A DNA stretch of 64,000 nt, from positions 2,095,480 to 2,159,479 of the forward strand of contig NZ_DF967965.1 in assembly GCF_001050195.2 (NCBI RefSeq). The letters are read 5' to 3'. The position numbers were made by a program, and so were the translations under genes. Below the pieces are notes generated by a model. It searched no databases and was not told the origin of the DNA. It worked only from the letters and a program-made list of their open reading frames with translations. This document shows positions 3,159 through 62,208 of the stretch, in pieces (within the stretch, counting starts at the first letter, position 1; each line of letters begins with the position of its first letter). Source of the DNA: Anaerolinea thermolimosa. GTDB taxonomy: Bacteria > Chloroflexota > Anaerolineae > Anaerolineales > Anaerolineaceae.

Positions 3159-4233
3159 AAAGAGTACCTTCCTGTTCCCGTTAACATCAGGGCCACGCCC
3201 AGCAGAAGTACCCCCCAGAACCACCCGTTCATGGCATTGCCTTTCAAAGCCAGTCCGCTCAACAGGATCAAACCCAACGCAGAGGTACGTCCCAGTACCC
3301 CGAGAACAACCAAAACCAACCCCAGTCCTGTCCCGCCAACCATCCACCAGAGCGGGACCGGAGACCTGATCTCCTGACAGAGGACAACCACCAGGTTTAA
3401 GGCCAGAGCCACCCGTAACAGATACGGGATCCACTTCCACACCATATTCAAGGTAGTCTGAATCCAGCCTTGAACACCCGTATTCCAATTCCATCTCAGC
3501 CCACAGACGGCCAGCCAGTCTCTGATAAAACTTCCCATGAGAGGGAACATCAACAACGTAGCCGCACCCTGTGTAACCGGTGGAGAATAAATCGGTAGCA
3601 GAACCACGGCAATAAAGCCCATTTGCATACCGGCCAGAGCACGGCGCGTCATAGAGGGTGGCATCGGATAATTCACCAGCCCAATACGGTTGCGAACCCA
3701 CATACCCAACAAAAAGAGATATCTGGCCAGACCAACCAGCAAATACCATACTGGCACTACACCATATTGAACCAGTAGGCAACTGCCAACAAGCACTCCA
3801 ATCCATCCCAGTGCATATCCAGGGTTTCACCGAGCAGACTGGTACGCCGGGTTGCCCTGGCCACCCATCCATCGAGATAATCAAGCAACGCCGCTCCAAA
3901 GTAGAGCAGGCCGGGAATCCACTCTGCAATCCCTGCCGGACGTGGAAGCCAGAGGAACCCGGCAAGCATGGCCAACCCTCCGGCCCGCACCAGCGTAATC
4001 CAATTGGCCAGCCCAAGCGTTGAATACAACCCTCCATCTCCAGAGGTATAGTTTTTCTCTAAATTCTTCCAGAGGTGAGCGAGAATGTAACCCATGAGTC
4101 CTCCGGCGACCACCCCCCACTGAAGAACATGCCTCTCGCTCACCCAGCCAGCTCTCAGAAGGGCAGATCCCCCGGCCAGAAAACCTCCAAAGGCCATTCC
4201 AACAAGAATCCACTCTCGCCTTAATCTATCCAT
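3098..4233 (-). pseudogene. CDP-alcohol phosphatidyltransferase fused to a DoxX-like membrane domain, frameshifted
   Basis: The first frame starts at ATG 4233 and has the complete catalytic signature of the CDP-alcohol phosphatidyltransferases: D121-G122, A125-R126, G135, D139 and D143 in YLDGWVARATRRTSLLGETL. It then stops at 3757. The natural continuation (VLVGSCLLVQYGVVPVWYL, then PLMGSFIRDWLAVCG) lies in the next frame and ends at 3098, so one base seems lost near 3795-3802. After the transferase part comes a four-helix region ending in GTGRYSLWKADEWM, which resembles DoxX family proteins. The enzyme family joins a CDP-linked lipid group to an alcohol head group in the membrane. The substrate is unknown. 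Confidence 0.78.
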
Positions 4234-4420: not shown

Positions 4421-7400
4421 TCAGGGAGTGTATCGCTTTAAGCCGATTTTCACCTTCTCCCCATCGAATTGATCTTCCACCACCACCATTTCAGCATCCG
4501 GCTCTCCCGTTGCCAGATCAACAGTGAGGGTCTCATTCATAATGTAATCCCGGAATTTTTCCACCGCGTCTGCAAGCAAGCCAGTGGCCACAAACCGCAG
4601 CCGAATGCGATCAGAAATTTCCAGTCCGGCCGTTTTTCGTAAATCCTGCACCCGGCGGACAAATTCACGCGCCAGCCCTTCAGCCCGGAGCTCTGGAGTG
4701 ATGACCGCATCAATGGCAACTGTGAAGCCCTTATCAGAGGCAACCGCCAGCCCTTCCACCGGCATGGTCTGCACGATGATCTCAGCAGGGGCCAGCTCGA
4801 TCTCCTGGCCATCAACGTTCAACTTCACTCCCTGCCCGGCCTGCACCAGGGCCGCTACCGAGGACGGGTCAAGAGCCGCCAGGGCCGCGCGCACCTTTGG
4901 GAAAAGAGCGCCAAAACGAGGTCCGAGAGTTTTATTATCCGGCAGTACCCTGAAATTCACTAACCGGCTGGCCTCTTCAACAAACTCAAAATCCTTAACA
5001 TTCAATTCATCGGTGATTATTTCCACCAGATCCGGCGGTAGTGACCGGTTATTCCCTGCGAAAGCCATCGCTCTGGCCAGAGGTTGCCGAACCTTCAGGT
5101 TTGCTCCACTCCGTGCCGCCAGTCCCAAACTGGCCACCATCCGCGCCAGATTCATCTGCTCCAGGAACACTCCATCAATCGCCGTTTCATCAGTAACTGG
5201 CCATCGGGTATGATGCACACTCTCATACGCTCCCTCCCGAACATTCCGCACCAGATTCTGGTACATTGCCTCAGTAACGAAAGGTGTGAGAGGGGCAAGC
5301 AGGCGGGTTAACTTCACCAGAACGTGGTACAGTGTGGCATAGGCTGCCTGTTTATCATCATCCGATTGGCTCTTCCAGAATCGCCGTCTTGACCGCCGAA
5401 TGTACCAGTTGGTGAGGTCATCGATGAAAACGCCAATCGATGTCGAAGCGGTATAAAAGTCAGAGTCGTCCAGGCTGGCAGTCACCCGCGCGGTAAGCTG
5501 GTTCAAACGCACCAGAATCCATCGGTCAAGAATATTCTCGCTCTGCGGCGTGGCACCTTCCGGAAAATCCCGATCGAAAGTCCCCTGGGGTAGCCATCCA
5601 TCCAGTCGAGCGTAGGTCACGAAGAAGCTATACGCATTCCAGAGCGGGATAAGGAATTGCCGTCTCGCCTCATCACCCCGGTTGTACCCGAAGAGCAAAT
5701 CATTCTCCGGTCGCTGAGTCACATAGAGCCAGCGCATCACATCCACCCCCATCCTGTCAGCGGCTTCATTAAACTCAATGGCATTCCCCCAGCTCTTATG
5801 CATGGGGCGACCATCTTCAGCCACCAGCGTGGCGAAACCAAAATTCTGCAGGAAGGGCGGACTCTGATCGATCACCGTGGCCATAGCCAGCAGACTGTAA
5901 AACCAGTTTCGGAACTGACCGGGGAATGATTCTGTGATCCATTGTGCCGGATACCACTTTCGCCAGTAGTCCGGATCGGAACGATATCTCAAAGTGCTAA
6001 ACGGCACAATTCCCGCATCTAGCCAGGGATTGCCAACGTCCAGAACCCGTTCCATCTTCCCACCGCAGTGCGGGCATTGAATCTTGACCGCATCAATGAA
6101 GGGGCGATGCGGCGTGTGTCCTTCGAAAATCTCCCACCCCTCCACAGCGCGCGCCTGTAACTCTTTTTCGTCCCCGATAACCTCATAATGATCGCATTCC
6201 TTGCACACCCAGATGGGCAAAGCCAGACCCCAGTAGCGCTTCTTGCTGATCATCCAGTCGTGCATATTGCGCAACCAGTCCATCTCTCGGGCATAACCAA
6301 ATTCAGGAATCCAGCGAATCTGGTCAACCACATCCATAATCTGATAACGCAGACTGCGTGCCTTTTCTTCCGGGGTCAATTCACTGCGGGGTTTATCATA
6401 GACCTCGCCCATACTGATGAACCACTCATCTACCAGCCGGAACACCAGCTCACTATGGCAACGCCAGCAAGTGGGGTAGCGATGTGTGTATGGGGCGACA
6501 CGGTAAAGTAAGTCTTTTTCTTTTAGATTGGCAAAGATGGGGTCTGCTACCTCTGAGACATGCATCCCGCTTAACCATAAAAAGCCATCCACAAAGACCC
6601 CTTCTTCGTCCAGCGGAGCGATCATCGGCAGGCCATATTTGCGGCCAAGCTGAAAGTCCTCCGCTCCACACCCCGGCGCAATATGGACAATCCCCGTTCC
6701 TTCCGTCTCCCCCACCTCTTCCCAGAGGATCACCCGATGGGCCTGAGCCGCGCTCTGAGATACCCCCGCCGATACTTCTTTAATCTTTGAAAATCCTCCG
6801 GCGATCTGAGCCGCGGGTAAATCATCAAATGGCCCGGCATACTTCCAGCCTTCCAATTCTGTGCCCTTTAACTCTCCCAGTACCTGATAGTCTCCACGCA
6901 ACATCGAAAGTGTACCTTTTGCCAGGTAGTAGACCCGATCGCCATTCCGCACTTTGACATAGGTAAGGTCTGGCCCTACCGCTGCTGCCACATTGCTGGT
7001 CAACGTCCACGGGGTAGTCGTCCAGACCAACAACGCTTCGGGCAAACCGGTTTGGGCATCCAGCCTGGGTTGGCCATTTTCATCGAGCAACGGGAAGCGC
7101 ACGGTAACGCTATTGTGAGTTAATTCAGCATACCCATCGGTGACAATTTCATGCTGGCTGATCCCTGTAGCACAGCGCGGACACCAGGGCATCACATCCA
7201 CACCACGGTAGACCCAGCCCTTTTCCCAGCAGCGCTTCAGGAAAGTCCAGATCATATAATTGTTTTCAGTGGAGAAAGTAAAATAACTTCCTCCCAGTTC
7301 AGGCATTCCCAACCGCCCGATGAGTTCTTCCACCGTTCCGGTTACCGGCCCCTCCACCCCTTCCAGGGTAATGATCTGCCGGGGGTTTTCGAGAAGCTTT

Positions 7401-7894: not shown

Positions 7895-7928
7895 AAATAA
7901 AACATCTCGACCCCACAGGGACGAGATG
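7895..7928 (-). terminator. T-box-controlled terminator hairpin before ileS
   Basis: On the minus strand CATCTCG pairs with CGAGATG around a CCC/GGG inner stem, followed by TTTTATTT. It directly follows the T-box sequence and competes with it in the standard T-box model. Confidence 0.75.
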
Positions 7929-8175
7929 GAACTCGCGGTACCACCCTGCTTCCCACCTGAATGGCGGGCGCTCTTTCGGGTACGTCCTCCTCGAAGATAC
8001 CCGCGCCTGCGATAACGGCTGGCGAGACCGGCTCACCTACTGACAGCTTACCCTGCGTTCAGATTGCAGCTCCGGAAGGATTTTCCATTCATTGTGCCGC
8101 CCCGGCTCTCACCCTTCCCGGGTTCGCTGACAGCACTTCATGAATGTACTCGTTTCCATCATCGCTTTATTGGAA
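7895..8175 (-). promoter_or_regulatory. T-box riboswitch leader of ileS
   Basis: The canonical T-box sequence AGGGTGGTACCGCG is present on the minus strand at 7934-7947, about 70 bases before the ileS ATG. Upstream lie a long stem-rich leader and a CCGTTATCGCAGGCGCGGG segment of the kind that precedes antiterminators. It is followed by a terminator hairpin at 7895-7928. T-boxes sense uncharged tRNA; ileS implies tRNA-Ile. I could not fix the specifier codon with certainty; an ATC lies in AAAATCCTTCC near 8072-8082 on the likely 3' side of Stem I. Confidence 0.92.
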
Positions 8176-49933: not shown

Positions 49934-50054
49934 CGCAGCTCATTGAGCGGTAGGGGGCCGCCGGGAACAGGTTCTGTCCGTGGTACCCTTCTCCCTTCCG
50001 GGGAAAATCAACGGGTAAAGTGCCTTACCCGTCTTTCCCATTTAACTGTAACTA

Positions 50055-50089
50055 GCCACCCCCTGAGTTATTGTCAGGGGGTGGCTTTT
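50055..50089 (+). terminator. Terminator of the dcw cluster
   Basis: GCCACCCCCTGA (50055-50066) pairs perfectly with TCAGGGGGTGGC (50074-50085), followed by TTTT. It is the strongest terminator in the window and closes the run from mraZ to ftsZ. Confidence 0.92.
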
Positions 50090-50347
50090 CTCTGGCCGGG
50101 TGTTTCATCCCGCCAGATTGAATGGCTCAGCCCAGTCGGTTGATTTTTCTTTAAGCCATTCTTTTCTTCTGGCGCCAACCTCTTTCAGGCATCCCTACAT
50201 CTGGGAAATTCCACCCCGGCTGCGTATTTTTCCCTTTATATACCCGGCCTTTTTGGGTTCTCTATGGACTCATTTCAGCTCAGTCCGCCCCTCTGAAGCC
50301 ACAGGAAATCTCAACCAAATATTAAGGTTAAGAATGCACAAAACCGC

Positions 50348-53782: not shown

Positions 53783-55063
53783 ATGGCCATTCAACCTAAA
53801 ACGATCAAAAAACGGGCAGGCAGCGCTCACCGGGTGAAATCTCCCAGGGAGCGTACCCTCCAGGCGGCCATCATCACCGGATTATGTGCTATCCTTGCCG
53901 TGGTGGTTGGTTTTTTTCTCGATCTCTTTTACTCACGCCCCAAGCCCATTCTTATTCTAACCCCCACCCAGGCACAAGCATCTACCTCCTTGCCCCAGCC
54001 GGATGGAATGCTCCACACAGATACTCCACCATGGCTTCCTGCCAATTCCCTGACCCAATCCTCTACACGCCCCGCTCTGAAGACACCTTCCCTTCCAGCC
54101 AGCCATCCCATCAGGATCTTACAGCAATTTCAGGGGCCGGGATCTTCTGCCGAGGGAATCGCCTGGGATGGTGAGACATTGTGGATCTCAGAGCCGACTA
54201 CCATTTTCAACCTTAATGAAAACGGAAAAATTCTCAGTGCCCGGCCTGCCCCGGAGGTTACCCCTGGAGGCATGACCTGGGATGGTGCCCATCTCTGGTT
54301 ATACACCACCAACTATTCTTTTATGTACGAGCTGGATACCGGAGGTCCAACCATTCGCTCCCTCCGATCCATCAAAGCCCCGACCATCGTCATCGGGGGT
54401 AGCATTACACATGATCTGGCATGGGATGGCGAACACTTCTGGTATGCCAATCAGTACAATCTCTATGAATTTTCCACCACAGGTGAGGTTATCCAAAATC
54501 TGGCATTCCCGCAGAATATTACCGGCCTCGATTGGGACGGCAGTCACCTCTGGCTGGCATTCAGTCATCCCATGCAAGAGGATTCTTTTCAGGTGATCGA
54601 TCCATCCGGTGAGACACTGGGTACCTTCGAGGCGCCGGTCAAAAACATCACCGGGATGACCTGGGGTAAAGGAACTTCGTTATGGGTCATCGCCCATGAA
54701 GATCCCGGCTTTGTCACCCAGATCTATGAACTTGATACCACCGCCGCCCTCCGAATGATCCCCCGTCCCATCGACCGGGCGTGGGAAGCCCGCCTGATCT
54801 CTGCTGAACGACGGGAAACCCTTCCGGTTTTCTCGGCCAGTGGTCAACCCGGCCGGCTAAAAGCTCCCGACAATGGGCTGGTCTTCTATATAGTGCAGGT
54901 CGAAATATACAACCCGCATCCCGGAGCTGTCATGGATCCAACCGCTTTAGAATTAGTTGATGACCAAAACCGGTCTTTTTCACCCGTTGGGATTCAAGAC
55001 CCCCTCTCCGGGAATTACTACTGGGGCAATTCAGGCCAGACCTGTAATGTGTTAGTTGTTTAG
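53783..55063 (+). CDS. Membrane-anchored beta-propeller protein with a C-terminal domain that appears cut short
   Basis: 426 residues. A basic N-terminus and one membrane helix (about 27-48) are followed by a Pro/Ser/Thr-rich linker, then repeats around WDG: GIAWDGETLWISE, GMTWDGAHLWLYT, DLAWDGEHFWYA, GLDWDGSHLWLAF. These look like glutamine-cyclotransferase- or NHL-like propeller blades outside the cell. From about residue 340 comes a DUF4352-like beta domain (LVFYIVQVEIYNPHPGAV) that stops after NSGQTCNVLVV, before its expected last strands. The phage-like element begins immediately after, so truncation by insertion is plausible. Confidence 0.7.
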   Translation: MAIQPKTIKKRAGSAHRVKSPRERTLQAAIITGLCAILAVVVGFFLDLFYSRPKPILILTPTQAQASTSLPQPDGMLHTDTPPWLPANSLTQSSTRPALKTPSLPASHPIRILQQFQGPGSSAEGIAWDGETLWISEPTTIFNLNENGKILSARPAPEVTPGGMTWDGAHLWLYTTNYSFMYELDTGGPTIRSLRSIKAPTIVIGGSITHDLAWDGEHFWYANQYNLYEFSTTGEVIQNLAFPQNITGLDWDGSHLWLAFSHPMQEDSFQVIDPSGETLGTFEAPVKNITGMTWGKGTSLWVIAHEDPGFVTQIYELDTTAALRMIPRPIDRAWEARLISAERRETLPVFSASGQPGRLKAPDNGLVFYIVQVEIYNPHPGAVMDPTALELVDDQNRSFSPVGIQDPLSGNYYWGNSGQTCNVLVV

Positions 55064-55136
55064 ATTCTAGCACAACTCCCCCAAAGTGTCCAAGAGTAAT
55101 TCGAAGGTGATGTAAACATACGAATTTTTCATTTTG

Positions 55137-55145
55137 TGGTATAAT
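55137..55145 (+). promoter_or_regulatory. Extended -10 promoter at the prophage left end
   Basis: TGGTATAAT reads as an extended -10 (TG, one base, TATAAT). No convincing -35 is seen. It would drive the small genes from 55392 on. Confidence 0.5.
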
Positions 55146-55209
55146 TAATATAAAGATAATAAATATTTTGCCGAAGTCACAGAAATAAAATAAGTAGTTA
55201 TTGCCACAG

Positions 55210-55232
55210 TTATAGAGGGAAAATTTATCCCT
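55210..55232 (+). repeat. TTATCCCT/AGAGGGA repeat, copy 1
   Basis: TTATAGAGGGA followed by AAAT and TTATCCCT; AGGGA and TCCCT can pair. First of four related sites in the left arm. Confidence 0.6.
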
Positions 55233-55323
55233 GCCCGCACTGGATAGCCCGAAGATTAAAATAACATTAGAGCTTTGTTAAAACCGCTGGTAATAGGATG
55301 ATCAAAGTGGGTAGCTACGTTCT

Positions 55324-55342
55324 ATATTAATAGAGGGATAAA
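55324..55342 (+). repeat. TTATCCCT/AGAGGGA repeat, copy 2
   Basis: TATTAATAGAGGGATAAAT, the reverse orientation of the motif, about 50 bases before the 31-codon gene. Confidence 0.6.
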
Positions 55343-55391
55343 TCAAAAAAGGGGGGAATATGTCTAAAAATTAGTTAACCTGGAGGTGATT

Positions 55392-55487
55392 ATGTTAGTG
55401 ATTATCTTACTCAGTATTTCTCTTGCGCTTACTTTTTTCAACCTGGGGTATTTCTTGGGGGCAAATCGCTCGAAACTATTCAAATAA
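55392..55487 (+). CDS. 31-residue single-helix membrane peptide
   Basis: ATG 55392 follows CTGGAGGTGATT, a very good ribosome-binding site. The peptide is a single hydrophobic helix (MLVIILLSISLALTFFNLGY) with a short basic tail (ANRSKLFK). The family is unknown. Phage-encoded membrane peptides of this size can act in lysis, exclusion or signalling, but nothing here decides between them. Confidence 0.5.
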   Translation: MLVIILLSISLALTFFNLGYFLGANRSKLFK

Positions 55488-55547
55488 GTTATTAAATTCC
55501 AAATTATTTCAAGGGGCAAGCAGAAAGGGGTTAGTTATGAGGTACAC

Positions 55548-55991
55548 ATGCAGTTACAACCCATTTACAATGATACTAAATTCAGGCAGAAACTTCGGTT
55601 TCCGAGATTAAATATCAGTACAACGCTTACCGACATGGATTTTGTAATAGAAAAATCAAATATCCTTTTTGTTTTTGGGGAAGTAAAAGAAACTGGAAAA
55701 GATTTAGCCTGGGGGCAAAAAATACTTTATGAGAGAGTGATAGATGCCATTAATTACAATCCTGAAAAACGGGCAATCTTCCTTCAGGTCTGGCATCATA
55801 ATCCACCACCAGATGATATCCTACTTGAAGACACAGTGGTGGTAAAAGCATATAGTAGATGTGGCTGGCAGTCTTTTGACCCCCCCATAAATACGGTTGC
55901 GTTTATAGAGTATTTGCTGGAAGATACCATAAAAGAAGAAAACAAAAGAAGGCTCAGCCTCCAGACAGAGATTGTTATGCATCCTGTTTAA
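55548..55991 (+). CDS. Hypothetical protein, possible PD-(D/E)XK nuclease
   Basis: 147 residues. The segment STTLTDMDFVIEKSN then LFVFGEVKETGKDL and GQKILYERVIDAI is arranged like a PD-(D/E)XK core: an Asp in the first strand (residues 29-31), E-x-K in the second (EVK, residues 46-48), and a following helix with a conserved-type Gln. Such folds occur in phage resolvases, recombinases and restriction enzymes. The start has only a weak ribosome-binding site. The nuclease call is inference from the motif pattern alone. Confidence 0.5.
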   Translation: MQLQPIYNDTKFRQKLRFPRLNISTTLTDMDFVIEKSNILFVFGEVKETGKDLAWGQKILYERVIDAINYNPEKRAIFLQVWHHNPPPDDILLEDTVVVKAYSRCGWQSFDPPINTVAFIEYLLEDTIKEENKRRLSLQTEIVMHPV

Positions 55992-56004
55992 AGGGGAGGG
56001 TTTT

Positions 56005-56211
56005 ATGACTTATCGATGTGCAATATGTGGCAATTACATAAAGCAAGTCAGGTATGACCTTTGCCCGGCATGTTTTAAGAATTATGGAATAACAGACACC
56101 TGGGTAAGAGAATTAATTAGAAATGAGAGGCATCTGGAAACAATAGAGAGCCACGAAATTCCTTTTACAGACCTCTTCCCAAATGTACAAAGGAAAGTGG
56201 ATGAATGTTAA
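56005..56211 (+). CDS. Small zinc-ribbon protein
   Basis: 68 residues from ATG 56005, behind GGGGAGGG. Two CxxC pairs (CAICGNYIKQVRYDLCPAC) form a likely zinc ribbon or knuckle in the first half; the second half is helical and charged. No family recognised. It lies just after the putative nuclease and may work with it or bind nucleic acid. Confidence 0.65.
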   Translation: MTYRCAICGNYIKQVRYDLCPACFKNYGITDTWVRELIRNERHLETIESHEIPFTDLFPNVQRKVDEC

Positions 56212-56254
56212 CGTTTTGTTAACGTTTTATAAGAATCGCTGAATAGAGGCCAGG

Positions 56255-56280
56255 TTATCCCTATATATATGATAGAGGGA
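56255..56280 (+). repeat. TTATCCCT/AGAGGGA repeat, copy 3
   Basis: TTATCCCTATATATAT then GATAGAGGGA: both halves of the motif, inverted, around a TA-rich centre. Confidence 0.65.
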
Positions 56281-56816
56281 GAAGAAAAACTAAATTTAGA
56301 TTTTCGGGACTTTTCAAAAATCAGTTAGCCCATTTTCCCACTTTCTTCTGATTTTTATGCCTTCAGAGGGGGATGCAGAAGGCACGTCAGAAAGACGTAA
56401 AAACAGCCGTGGATGGTACGGACGGGATTAAAACCTTCCCGTGAAACCGGTTACATACCAGACCTCATACTTTTTGTCTGGCGGACACACCCGATAATAA
56501 ACAGCAGACGCAATACAGCCAGCATCGTAGAAAATGGGGGGTTAGACTCCCCCCGCCCGGCTTCTTAAGAGATAGGGGTTAATCCAGCGTCCACCTTGAA
56601 GCCCTGCACGCACCGGCCAACAGCCCAGTTTACCTGGTGAGGTACGGTTACCCCTAGCGGTTATACTGCACCGCCCTTTCTCAAAGGTAAGTCGTGGAGG
56701 AGTTAACAACATCATACAGAAAACTAACGAAAAACTAACCAGCGGAATTTTATAGTTTTTCAGCCTTTGGCTTCTTCTGTATGGTGCAGGCAACCCCTCT
56801 ACGATGGGAGACCTGT

Positions 56817-56854
56817 ATCTATTTACTGAAATTAAGCAATTTCGGTAAATAGAT
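56817..56854. repeat. 17-bp hairpin before the terminase genes
   Basis: ATCTATTTACTGAAATT (56817-56833) pairs with AATTTCGGTAAATAGAT (56838-56854) with a single G-T wobble and a 4-base loop AAGC. Confidence 0.8.
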
Positions 56855-56881
56855 TAGGCTCAAACCTGAAAAATTCTTAAC

Positions 56882-56901
56882 GCATTTGCTAACGCAAATG
56901 C
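56882..56901. repeat. 8-bp perfect hairpin
   Basis: GCATTTGC (56882-56889), loop TAAC, GCAAATGC (56894-56901). It lies 27 bases after the 17-bp hairpin. Confidence 0.75.
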
Positions 56902-57042
56902 TAATTTTGCTGATTTTCGCAGAAAAATTAATTAATCTCTCTTTTTTACTTTAAATCTTAATAGACCCTGGCTTTACTACAGGTCAATTGGGGGGATTCT
57001 GTCTTAAATCAAAAAGAGGTAAAGACATCATTTTTAAGCGAC

Positions 57043-57066
57043 TTATCCCTATATAGTAATAGGGGA
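57043..57066 (+). repeat. TTATCCCT/AGGGGA repeat, copy 4
   Basis: TTATCCCTATATAGTAATAG then GGGA, just before the small terminase gene; CCCTAT and ATAGGG pair. Confidence 0.65.
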
Positions 57067-57093
57067 AGAAATCATTTGAAGAGGTAAACATTT

Positions 57094-57483
57094 ATGAATC
57101 TCAGGCAAAAAGCATTTGTAGATACTTACATAGCTGGATTACTGGGGGAAAAGCTTTCTGCTCCTCAGGCGTATCTCAAAGTATATCGGACGAAGAGTCT
57201 GAAGGTAGCGGGGCGTGAAAGTCATCGGATATTACAGCGGCCTGAGGTAAAGGAATACATCCAGCAGAAGATGAGTGAGCTGGCGATGAGCGGGAATGAA
57301 GTACTGGTGAGGCTGGCGGAGATAGCCAGAAATGGGACAAACACAGAGAAGTTAAAGGCGCTGGAATTAATTGGGAAAGTACACGGGTTATTCACGGAGA
57401 GAGTAGATGTCACCAGTGGGGGAGAGAAGCTGAGTTTCAAGGAATTTATTCAAAGTTATGGCAACATCCGACTACCAGGATAA
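57094..57483 (+). CDS. Phage terminase small subunit
   Basis: This 129-residue DNA-recognition subunit of the packaging motor has the Terminase_2-like pattern: RQKAFVDTYIAG, an APQAYLKVY helix, ESHRILQRPEVKEYI, a dimerisation helix and a C-terminal LELIGKVHGLFTERV. It overlaps the large subunit by 26 bases. Its position right after the gene-free stretch suggests the packaging start site lies there or within this gene. Confidence 0.9.
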   Translation: MNLRQKAFVDTYIAGLLGEKLSAPQAYLKVYRTKSLKVAGRESHRILQRPEVKEYIQQKMSELAMSGNEVLVRLAEIARNGTNTEKLKALELIGKVHGLFTERVDVTSGGEKLSFKEFIQSYGNIRLPG

Positions 57484-58750
57484 GAGCTTTGAAGCTTTCT
57501 GTGAGCAATTCCTCAAAATTGTGGATAAGCAAAACCGGGTAATTCCCCTCAGGCTGAATGCTATCCAGAAAAAGCTGATTGGAGAGCTAACGGGAAGGGA
57601 TATTATTCTGAAGCCGAGGCAGACAGGAATTACCACCCTCATCCAGGCCTTTATCTTCCGAAGTATGCTGGAGGAAAATACCAGAGCCGTCACTCTCACC
57701 CATCTGGATTCGAGCACGGAAAATATTCGTAAAATTCAGGATACCTTTTATCAACATTTCCCTTTCAGTGATTTAAAGCGGGGGAGCAACAATCAGGTTA
57801 CGGTAACCTATCCGTTATTTAATTCAAGTCATACTACCAGTACGGCAGGCAGTCTGGATTTTGGCAGAGGGGGGACATTCACCATCTTTCATGGGAGTGA
57901 GGTAGCTTTCTGGAAAGACCCTGAGAAAATCATCAGCGGGGTAGCTCAATCAAGCAGGTGGATTATTCTGGAGAGCACTCCGAATGGGGCACAGGGCTGG
58001 TTTTATGAGAAATGTCTGGAGGCTTTATCCGGTAGAGGGGGGTGGAGACTGCATTTTTTCCCCTGGTATGAATTTGAGGAATACAGGGATATACCGGACT
58101 TCAAAGAGCGGAAGCTTCAGGAATTGGGGAGGTTTTTCTATCAGGAATATCCTGAAACGGTAGAGGAGTGTTTTTTGAGCAGTGGGGAGGGGTATTTTGA
58201 TACGCTGGACTTATCCAGGACATTTACAGCCCCAGCTAACAACCAGTTTGTGTACGGGCATGTTTATTCAGCCGGACTGGATTTTGGGCAATCGAATGAT
58301 TTCACCTTTTTAACGGTGATAGACCGCACAGAAAACTGTCAGGTGGATTATCTGCACTTGAATAAACTTCCCTGGAGTCAGCAGAGGCATGAAATTATCA
58401 AGATGTATCGAAAGTGGCATCTGACCTCAATACGGGCGGAAGAAAATTCGATAGGCAACGTCAACATTGAAGAATTAGAGAATGCCGGTTTAAGGATAGA
58501 GCGTTTTACCACCACCAACAGAAGCAAAAATCAAATTATGCAACGGCTTTATGATGCTCTGGAGAATGGACTGAAGCTGATAGACTGGCCGGTACAGAAG
58601 ATGGAATTGAGAAACATGGTATCGAAACAAACAAAGTCCGGTCTGTGGACGATTGAAGCGGCTTCCGGTCATGATGATACGGTGATGGGACTGGCGTTAG
58701 CCGTGAGTGCAAAAATAAATTCAGAAAGAAGAGCGAGGAGTTGGAATTAA
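57458..58750 (+). CDS. Phage terminase large subunit
   Basis: This 430-residue ATPase-nuclease packages DNA into the prohead. The Walker A-like motif is ILKPRQTGITTLIQ near residue 52; the Walker B region is FTIFHGSEVAFW. The RNase H-like nuclease domain starts at SAGLDFGQSNDFTFL with the first catalytic Asp; a last acidic pair lies in SGHDDTVMGLALAV. It is on the short side for TerL but has both domains. Confidence 0.92.
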   Translation: MATSDYQDKSFEAFCEQFLKIVDKQNRVIPLRLNAIQKKLIGELTGRDIILKPRQTGITTLIQAFIFRSMLEENTRAVTLTHLDSSTENIRKIQDTFYQHFPFSDLKRGSNNQVTVTYPLFNSSHTTSTAGSLDFGRGGTFTIFHGSEVAFWKDPEKIISGVAQSSRWIILESTPNGAQGWFYEKCLEALSGRGGWRLHFFPWYEFEEYRDIPDFKERKLQELGRFFYQEYPETVEECFLSSGEGYFDTLDLSRTFTAPANNQFVYGHVYSAGLDFGQSNDFTFLTVIDRTENCQVDYLHLNKLPWSQQRHEIIKMYRKWHLTSIRAEENSIGNVNIEELENAGLRIERFTTTNRSKNQIMQRLYDALENGLKLIDWPVQKMELRNMVSKQTKSGLWTIEAASGHDDTVMGLALAVSAKINSERRARSWN

Positions 58751-60030
58751 TGATGAATGATTTAGAGATTGCGTATGAAAGTCTGAAAAACAAAATTCCT
58801 CTGTACAACCAGCTGTACCATTATGCGGAAGGTCATCCAGGGTTGAAGTACTCCACCGAGCGTCTGAATCGGGCATTTGGACGGCTGGCCTATTTTGCAC
58901 AGGACTGGGGGCATTTAGTCATTCGGGTTATTCTGGACAGGTTGATTTTAAAGGGTTTTGATGCCGGAGATGAATCTGTAAATGGACTGTTAGATGAGTT
59001 GTTTCTCTCCACCGGAATGAATTTAGAAGCCAGGAATATCCATGAATCCTTACTGGTGACGGGGGAAGCTTTTCTCATGGTTGATTTTGTGGACGGGAAG
59101 CCTGAAGTCTACGCCAATGACCCACGTATGTGTGAGATGATTTACGATGCAGAGAGGCCGAGGGTCAAAAAATTTGCATTAAAAAAGTGGGAAGATGGGG
59201 GAAAGTACTTTATCAACCTGTATTATCCAGACCGGATAGAGAAGTATCAGGCAGATGCGGATTATCCAGGGAGTTACCGGCTCAAAGAAACCCTTTCCAA
59301 CCCCCTGAATGAGATACCGGTTTTTCACTTTAAAAATTCCAGCCACAAGATACAGGGGGAATTGAGCGAAGCCACCCTGTCCATTCTGGATGCCATTAAC
59401 AAGCTTTTCAGTGATTTGATGGTAGCGGCTGAATTTGAAGCTTTCAAGATGCGGGTTTTTATTGCTCAATCTGACCCTGGAGACATTCAGGTGGGGCCGG
59501 ACATGAAAATCTGGCTTCCTGCTACTGAGGGAGAAGGCCAGGGGGCGCAGGTACTGGAATTAGGTGGGAGCAGTCTGAAAAACTTTTTGGAGCCACTGGA
59601 GAGCCTGGCAACCATACTGGCAACAACTACGGGGACACCCAAGCATTACTTACTTCCCTCAGGAAGCAACCTCTCTGGAGAAGCTCTGATGATACAGGAG
59701 AGCCCGCTGGTGAAAAAGGTGAATATGAAGCAGGAATTATACAGTCCGGTTTGGCAGGAAGTAGCCGCATTTTTACTCCGACTGCTGGGGATAAATTACA
59801 ACCAATCCGAGATTAGTTGTGTCTGGGAGAATCCAGAAACGATGCTTCCGGTGACAGAAGCACAGACGATTCAAATTCTGGCCAGTGCTGGAATACCATT
59901 GATTTCCGCTTTACGCTGGATGGGAAAAGATGAAGCGGAAATCAGGCGGGTAGCGGATGAAAAGAATCAGGAAGATTTGCAGAATCAAAATGTTTTAGCC
60001 CAGTCTTTATTGAGATTTAATCAGCAATGA
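58750..60030 (+). CDS. Phage portal protein
   Basis: 426 residues from ATG 58750, which overlaps the terminase stop (TAATG) and has GAGGAG upstream. The pattern fits SPP1 gp6-type portals: helical wings, ILDRLILKGF, LLVTGEAFLMVDF, a central stem, and LSGEALMIQESPLVKKVN. It forms the dodecameric ring through which DNA enters. MuF-like and scaffold genes follow, as in SPP1-type phages. Confidence 0.88.
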   Translation: MMNDLEIAYESLKNKIPLYNQLYHYAEGHPGLKYSTERLNRAFGRLAYFAQDWGHLVIRVILDRLILKGFDAGDESVNGLLDELFLSTGMNLEARNIHESLLVTGEAFLMVDFVDGKPEVYANDPRMCEMIYDAERPRVKKFALKKWEDGGKYFINLYYPDRIEKYQADADYPGSYRLKETLSNPLNEIPVFHFKNSSHKIQGELSEATLSILDAINKLFSDLMVAAEFEAFKMRVFIAQSDPGDIQVGPDMKIWLPATEGEGQGAQVLELGGSSLKNFLEPLESLATILATTTGTPKHYLLPSGSNLSGEALMIQESPLVKKVNMKQELYSPVWQEVAAFLLRLLGINYNQSEISCVWENPETMLPVTEAQTIQILASAGIPLISALRWMGKDEAEIRRVADEKNQEDLQNQNVLAQSLLRFNQQ

Positions 60031-61227: not shown

Positions 61228-62208
61228 ATGTCCGATTATGACAAGTATATCAGTACAGGGAATGTAGGATTAACCCCTGAGCAATTGGGAGAAATTATTG
61301 CGGAAGCTACCAGACAATCTGCCGTGCTATCCCTGGGCAGACGGTTACGCAACATGACCACTGGTGAATTGAAATTAAAGGTGTCCACGGCTTTACCGGA
61401 AGTGTATTTTGTAGGGGAAAAGGGTAAATCTCAAACCTATCCCCCCGATGCCCTGAAAAAGACCACCAAGTCCGAATGGGAAGATGTTTCTATTTATGCC
61501 GGAGAGCTGGCGGCGATTGTTGTGATTCCAAACAATGTTTTCAATGATGCAAACTTTGATATTTTTGCCGAGGTGAAAGCCCAGATGCCGGGAGCAATCG
61601 CCAAGACCATTGACCGGGCGGTTTTTTACGGTCAGGCAGGGGTGGATGTACCGGATGACTGGAGCAATGGTATTTTTGTCAATGCTCCTGCATCTCATAA
61701 GATTACGGCTGGGACGGGGGCAGATGTTTATGATGACCTGCTGGGTGAAGAAGGGGTTTTTGCTGTGGTGGAAGAAGATGGCTATGATGTCAACGGGATT
61801 GTTTCTGCCACCACCATGAAGGCAAAGCTTCGCGGATTGAGGGATGGGACGAATGGTATGCCGTTATTCACCATGTCCATTCAGGATGGGCCGCAGTATG
61901 CTCTGGCGGGTGTGCCCATGACCTTCCCGGAGAATGGGGGTTTTGACCCGTCAGAAACCCTGCTGATTGCCGGGGACTGGAATAAACTGGTGTATTCCAT
62001 TCGTCAGGACATGGCTTTTGATGTCTTTGATACGGGGGTCATTCAGGATGCTTCAGGGAATATCACCCATAATCTCATGCAGGAAGACCTGACTGCATTA
62101 CGGGTGACCTTTAGAATGGCATGGGGAATGCCTTTACCGGCACAGCAGGCCAGAGTGGTGGCTTCCGGGGTGTATCCGTTTGGTTTTTATGTCCCTTCCG
62201 GGGTTTAA
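61228..62208 (+). CDS. HK97-fold major capsid protein
   Basis: 326 residues. The N-terminal arm is short; the body shows the HK97-type order with LKLKVSTALPEVYFVGEKG, EDVSIYAGELAAIVVIPN, AIAKTIDRAVFYGQA and the late FDPSETLLIAGDWNKLVY. There is no long delta domain, in keeping with a separate scaffold gene. AGGAG precedes the ATG. Confidence 0.9.
   Translation: MSDYDKYISTGNVGLTPEQLGEIIAEATRQSAVLSLGRRLRNMTTGELKLKVSTALPEVYFVGEKGKSQTYPPDALKKTTKSEWEDVSIYAGELAAIVVIPNNVFNDANFDIFAEVKAQMPGAIAKTIDRAVFYGQAGVDVPDDWSNGIFVNAPASHKITAGTGADVYDDLLGEEGVFAVVEEDGYDVNGIVSATTMKAKLRGLRDGTNGMPLFTMSIQDGPQYALAGVPMTFPENGGFDPSETLLIAGDWNKLVYSIRQDMAFDVFDTGVIQDASGNITHNLMQEDLTALRVTFRMAWGMPLPAQQARVVASGVYPFGFYVPSGV

Follow-up and report, generated by a model that had tools for sequence, protein, structure and literature searches.

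The window, which is the whole 64-kb stretch of DNA that was analysed, is a portion of a 3.44-Mb contig. A 15.2-kb prophage starts in it at 54938 and is bounded by identical att direct repeats of 93 nt. attL was located at 54938-55030 and attR at L007:6168-6260, 15,230 bp downstream of attL, and the identity of the two repeats was checked. The ORF of a tyrosine-type integrase (L007:5260-6213, minus strand) adjoins attR, and its longest form overlaps this repeat. The prophage interrupts a host gene (window 53783-55063, L007:6168-6488) near its 3' end. At attL the host gene now stops some 10 codons into the phage sequence; its frame continues through attR, with a stop about 75 codons past the repeat.

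The left part of the prophage carries, in this order, a promoter-like site, a 31-aa ORF, a 147-aa ORF, a zinc-ribbon ORF, a gene-free block and the gene of the terminase small subunit (terS). The 31-aa ORF (55392-55487, + strand) is hydrophobic and has the Shine-Dalgarno sequence GGAGGTGA, and the 147-aa ORF (55548-55991, + strand) gave no family match. The next ORF (56005-56211, + strand) encodes a small zinc-ribbon-like protein (CxxC..CxxC) with a weak match to phrog_888. A tandem 11-nt repeat, TGTTAACGTTT, was observed at the extreme end of this gene (56206-56227). terS (57094-57483, + strand) starts at the base directly after the block. It is followed by the gene of the terminase large subunit (terL, 57458-58750, + strand), which matched Terminase_6C and phrog_2, an SPP1-type portal gene (58741-60030, + strand), a MuF-like gene, the major capsid protein (MCP) gene (61228-62208, + strand), connector and tail genes, the tape-measure gene and the integrase gene. 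The portal and the MCP both gave family matches.

The scan of the prophage proteins left out four small ORFs (the 31-aa ORF and L007:23-277, 340-606 and 5056-5289). Among the scanned proteins, several of which had no family, none was recognised as the product of a replication, repressor or endolysin gene. The portal of the prophage is the only SPP1-type portal in the genome, and therefore no second phage of that type is present there. The prophage is possibly a satellite phage. In excerpts of their published description, the satellites MulchRoom and MiniFlayer have few genes, among them terS, terL, portal and capsid, with replication genes absent, and MulchRoom also has a tyrosine integrase (PMC10690885). 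Going by these excerpts, our prophage is similar in its few genes and the same four packaging and head genes; none of its scanned proteins was recognised as one for replication. It differs in that the hosts of MulchRoom and MiniFlayer are Streptomyces, and the excerpts mention no structured block (PMC10690885).

The gene-free block covers 882 nt on the + strand (56212-57093), between the zinc-ribbon ORF and terS. A preliminary description of this DNA had placed it at 56355-56905. That part is gene-free, and the actual gene-free stretch is wider. The absence of coding potential was confirmed, as no credible gene was found throughout 56212-57093, where the longest listed ORFs were 51 aa (+ strand) and 83 aa (− strand). 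Eight six-frame stop-to-stop peptides were scanned, which gave no Pfam match and one PHROG match at E 0.47, and a hidden gene was rejected because these peptides held no trace of one. The same description regarded all other space of the element as tightly coded, which was not exact, since 55074-55363 also lacks a listed ORF (at least 40 aa). The block occurs once in its own genome (E ≤ 0.001), and a multi-copy element was rejected on this ground.

Signals around the block

A promoter-like extended −10 site, TGTGGTATAAT, is located at 55126-55151 (+ strand), and the same 26-mer occurs in the sister phage described below (L138:195-220). A shorter form of the site was present in 36 viral contigs, and the site therefore looks like a generic promoter. 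The 26-mer was rejected as a family marker, since its shorter form is widespread.

Two copies of a second motif, TWATAGAGGGANAA, were found without mismatch on the + strand at 55210-55223 and at 55328-55341, the latter 50 nt ahead of the 31-aa ORF. A third copy (56270, + strand, one mismatch) is contained in the dyad TTATCCCTATATATATGATAGAGGGAGAA at 56255-56283, close to the block's 5' border. A fourth copy (57057, + strand, two mismatches) is contained in the dyad TTATCCCTATATAGTAATAGGGGAAGAA at 57043-57070, between the block and terS. Two of the copies thus precede coding units, namely the 31-aa ORF and terS, and one is near the start of the block. The motif had seven matches on both strands of the 64 kb against 1.85 expected, and none of 100 shuffles reached seven; this motif, the right arm of the dyad, was derived from the very sites at which it is counted.

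The left arm was also examined. The window holds two exact copies of TTATCCCTATATA, which are the left arms of two dyads (56255 and 57043), and the dyad pattern with TTATCCCTATATA occurs at those two places alone in the whole genome. With up to three mismatches, 16 matches were found in the window (8.5 expected), and 2 of 100 shuffles reached this number. Seven of the 16 fall in 55147-57062, where about 0.25 are expected by simple proportion, an expectation that is too low, since the region is A+T-rich and each dyad counts twice, once per arm. In addition, AAAAATYAGTTARCC was found at 55366 and 56316, downstream of the motif copies at 55328 and 56270. The motif was not enriched in the sister phage, with 13 matches at up to three mismatches against 14.9 expected. 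From the sequence, we infer that the dyads and the motif may serve this phage as operators or promoters.

Terminator-like and promoter-like sites were counted in 54900-57200. There were four terminator-like sites, including the hairpin HP-C described below, against 2.3 in shuffles (sd 1.5), and seven promoter-like sites against 5.6 (sd 2.6). Within error, neither kind was in excess of the shuffles in this interval.

Predicted folding of the block

The preliminary description reported at least ten closely packed inverted repeats in some 550 nt. On either strand, none of 100 shuffles folded as well as the 571-nt stretch 56340-56910 (z −6.0 and −5.6). This overall score masked that solely the last third is unusual, which calls for caution with scores of whole blocks. 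Nearly all of the excess folding arose in 56690-56930, and the ten inverted repeats were not confirmed as exceeding chance over the whole 550 nt. None of 200 shuffles matched the fold of 56690-56865 (z −10.1 for the coding strand, −7.6 for its complement), and that of 56686-56910 gave z −8.9. For 56354-56692, z was −1.3 on the coding strand, where 11 of 100 shuffles were as good, and −1.5 on the other strand (5 of 100). Over its full length, the 5' part of the block (56285-56689, + strand) showed no excess of structure over shuffles, with z −0.65 on the + strand (17 of 60 shuffles as good) and −1.6 on the − strand (6 of 60). Two short hairpins of this part were modestly unusual when taken alone. 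They are located at 56358-56400 (z −3.2 on the + strand, −5.0 on the − strand) and at 56456-56484 (z −2.5 and −3.4, respectively). Positional entropy was 0.21-0.46 bits at 56675-56874, compared with 0.83-1.73 bits further 5'. By these fold models, the folded domain of the block is real and comprises about 175-240 nt.

A coarse scan of the + strand was performed with 320 windows of 200 nt and 12 shuffles each. The window at 56801 ranked third (z −5.5), behind those at 50001 and 4201, both of which are outside the prophage, and an extra off-grid window at 56701 gave z −7.5. The strongest window of the scan (50001, z −9.0) belongs to a region between ftsZ and nrdR (49950-50250). This region has a terminator-like 13-bp G+C-rich hairpin followed by T's, as well as more hairpins, and gave no Rfam match up to E 1.

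Four hairpins were distinguished in the folded 3' part, all on the + strand. HP-A (56691-56806, z −6.6) is a long imperfect hairpin that closes a three-way junction, and its outer arms of 30 nt are 77% complementary. HP-B (56809-56863, z −8.2) has a 17-bp stem with one G-U pair, a loop AAGC and outer pairs; the 17-nt stem is 94% complementary. HP-C (56882-56901) consists of GCATTTGC-TAAC-GCAAATGC followed by TAATTTT, which is weakly terminator-like with a poor T-tract. HP-D (56902-56930) is an A+T-rich hairpin. HP-C and HP-D together (56878-56932) gave z −3.8 on the coding strand.

We also asked whether the fold is one of RNA or of DNA. The coding strand folds somewhat better (z −10.1 versus −7.6), and we therefore lean to RNA. 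With DNA energies, the two strands were alike (z −7.2 and −7.3). The two best stems contained three G-T and three A-C mismatches, which gave no lean to either RNA or DNA.

Comparison with RNA classes and search for relatives

The place of the folded segment beside the packaging genes was described correctly at the outset, and a large ornate RNA recalling GOLLD or ROOL had been proposed for it, to be checked with Infernal against Rfam. This proposal was not supported, since no Rfam family reached its gathering cut-off in the block and the strong folding was confined to about 175-240 nt. GOLLD is among the 4227 Rfam models, and Rfam includes a pRNA model. At E ≤ 10, 11 weak matches were obtained in the block, with no GOLLD, ROOL or phage pRNA among them. 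The best was to lactis-plasmid at 56826-56901, that is, on HP-B and HP-C, with 29.7 bits against a cut-off of 70 (E 0.017). This match and those to microRNA precursors were taken as chance matches on stems. A search of the own genome with the ROOL model RF03087 gave no match, a result without weight since its 14 controls were silent too. There was no tRNA in the 64-kb window and none in the following 40 kb, and a tRNA or tmRNA was rejected because none is near the block. A T-loop-like hairpin noticed by eye at 56536-56554 was not beyond chance (z −1.1); a 17-mer of it occurs in six viral contigs, without wider similarity (best E 0.054). Elsewhere in the window, a T-box leader (RF00230, 103.5 bits) was found at 7914-8171 on the − strand. 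The loci of six relatives gave no Rfam match.

In excerpts of a published account, GOLLD and ROOL occur in phages as well as prophages, frequently close to tRNA islands, and many GOLLD members exceed 800 nt (PMC12286853). Our block is similar to ROOL (RF03087) and GOLLD in that it is gene-free, structured and inside a prophage. Unlike them, it matched neither model, has no tRNA nearby and folds strongly over about 175-240 nt only. The pRNA of phi29 is a phage packaging RNA of about 175 nt, and the partner of phi29-type pRNA is the gp16 packaging ATPase. The fold of the block is similar in size (about 175 nt), in its three-way junction and in its presence in a phage. The prophage of the window carries a packaging system of TerS, TerL and an SPP1-type portal in place of a gp16 ATPase, and the block had no pRNA match. 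In the titles and abstract openings of the papers that the literature searches listed, no description of such a block before a terminase gene was found.

DNA relatives of the block were found neither in 50,697 phage records nor in 72,556 plasmids. Among 61 near-kin genomes, only the block itself was recovered (1/61), and the same was true of 396 genomes of the class (1/396; up to two candidates per genome scored). A covariance model of 56690-56865 was built from the single sequence, entered as two identical copies. With stricter filters and up to six candidates per genome, this model matched only itself in the 396 genomes, together with a weak antisense self-match. The outcome was identical in 81 sources, comprising the window and 80 loci. 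Searches of the block against the fetched loci at word size 7 gave a best E of 0.04.

Relatives were also sought by neighbourhood, with TerL, TerS, portal and MCP as queries. The closest phage among the matches listed was L138 (identical with L012), an IMG/VR contig of 14,730 bp that ends inside a tail-end gene. From terS on it is collinear with the prophage, save that no MuF-like gene was found. Identities were 68% for MCP, 57% for the portal, 51% for TerL, 35% for TerS and 43% for the zinc-ribbon protein. Between the zinc-ribbon gene and terS, this sister phage has 111 nt and a 70-aa ORF, and the block is absent. The 111-nt stretch, which reaches from the zinc-ribbon gene to the next ORF, holds one 15-bp hairpin and is weakly unusual (z −2.6). 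L138:1829-2854 matched replication-initiation families, and no counterpart was found in the prophage of the window.

Gene-free stretches of the sister phage hold arrays of near-perfect palindromes, whose sequences differ and are unrelated to the hairpins of the block. The array at L138:258-374 is located between two promoter-like sites (205 and 427), 97 nt ahead of an ATG, and the fold of 240-400 gave z −9.9. A second array (about 1090-1250; fold of 1072-1262, z −5.4) is directly upstream of a Shine-Dalgarno sequence and an ATG at 1269. A single hairpin (3272-3311) is placed in the same way before an ATG at 3344. Several tandem palindromes near the early genes have common flanks, AAATG...CATTT, with different cores. 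The contig starts with a perfect palindrome of 64 nt (L138:1-64), which is probably an assembly snap-back.

A distant relative, L036 (portal 36%, MCP 43%), has a hairpin-rich gap ahead of the ORFs in terminase position. The 561 nt folded there gave z −6.0 and include about 414 gene-free nt. The ORFs in that position were not matched by the TerS and TerL queries and were assigned by position alone. Gaps of 350 nt or more in the fetched loci were then surveyed with 30 shuffles, those above 600 nt being trimmed to 600 save one. In four of the 14 long gaps, one strand or both reached a z of about −4.5 or below. These results for the two relatives and the 14 gaps suggested that hairpin-rich gaps are not rare in such phages. 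No common sequence was found among them.

Possible functions of the block

Our tentative reading, which we hold with somewhat less than even confidence, is that the block acts in cis as the untranslated leader of the late (packaging and head) operon and has a folded domain of about 175-240 nt. The block is untranslated and precedes terS, and its predicted fold on the coding strand is beyond chance, as in a structured leader. Transcription of the + strand would start at either the left promoter or the signal at 56255. In the transcript, the hairpins might slow or end transcription, block nucleases or set translation. The packaging and head genes could thereby be expressed separately from the early genes. 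The z-score of 56690-56865, the low entropy, the TWATAGAGGGANAA sites, the hairpins of L138 and L036 and the 4 of 14 gaps were counted in favour of the leader. Counted against it were the length of the block, which at 882 nt far exceeds the 111 nt of the sister, the lack of motif enrichment in the sister, the terminator-like and promoter-like sites at chance level, the neutral stem mismatches and the failure to find a relative. Structured leaders of phage late operons exist, for example the put-type antitermination RNA. The block is similar to put-type leaders in being hairpin-bearing, untranslated and upstream of phage genes; antitermination here is conjectural. As the searches gave no relative of the block, we consider a leader likelier than a new giant RNA.

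The fold may also belong to a stand-alone non-coding RNA gene, which would extend from the signal at 56255, or from a start near 56675, to HP-C or HP-D and would either act in trans or serve as packaging or structural RNA. The borders of the block carry the same kind of signal as the coding units, the predicted fold is very well defined with its three-way junction and z −10.1 on the coding strand, and the terminator-like HP-C is at the end. We regard such a gene as unlikely, given that no Rfam family reached cut-off and no relative appeared in the searches run, that the closest phage among the matches listed has no block at the same place, and that the 5' 400 nt are not structured as a whole and the T-tract of HP-C is poor. 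An equally doubtful reading takes the inverted repeats to act as DNA, either as a cos or pac site bound by TerS or as a replication origin. Many phages keep cos directly before terS, and the block adjoins terS. The TTATCCCTATATA dyads near both borders, found nowhere else in the genome, the strong folds on both strands, also with DNA energies, and the stem mismatches without strand bias are consistent with a DNA site. However, no cohesive ends or TerS site were identified, an imperfect hairpin of 116 nt is unnecessary for a packaging site, and the sister, whose terminase is related (TerL 51%), has no such block. For an origin, the scanned prophage proteins included no recognised replication protein, whereas the sister has an initiator-like gene, and this reading merits attention because the initiator is missing. 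A helper-dependent life, as in MulchRoom and MiniFlayer according to the excerpts cited above, would explain the missing initiator equally well.

Less likely still is a relic, that is, a decayed gene or inserted element in the place of the sister genes, with the hairpins left over. The G+C content of 56401-56700 was 48-59%, compared with 30-42% in the flanking gene-free sequence, and is much like that of the late genes (39-53%). Moreover, the sister has different genes in that part of its genome, and the block is a singleton. Against a relic, the eight scanned peptides held no coding trace, a single genomic copy was found (E ≤ 0.001), and complementarity is 94% in the 17-nt stem and 77% in the 30-nt arms. 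The boldest proposal, which we consider very improbable, is that in this very small phage, which has no recognised replication initiator, a new RNA of about 175-240 nt, with two domains and a three-way junction, replaces a missing protein, either as a packaging RNA that works with the TerS/TerL motor or by priming a protein-free, RNA-primed replication origin. If an RNA did replace a protein, the unrelated hairpin arrays of the sister would be other solutions within the same phage group.

Should the block be a separate RNA for packaging or replication, it would show phage RNA in a new function. If it is a leader, as we tentatively prefer, it would add one more unusually well-folded case of what may be control of late genes in small phages of a little-known group. 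It would also suggest that hairpin-rich gaps recur in that group without a common sequence.
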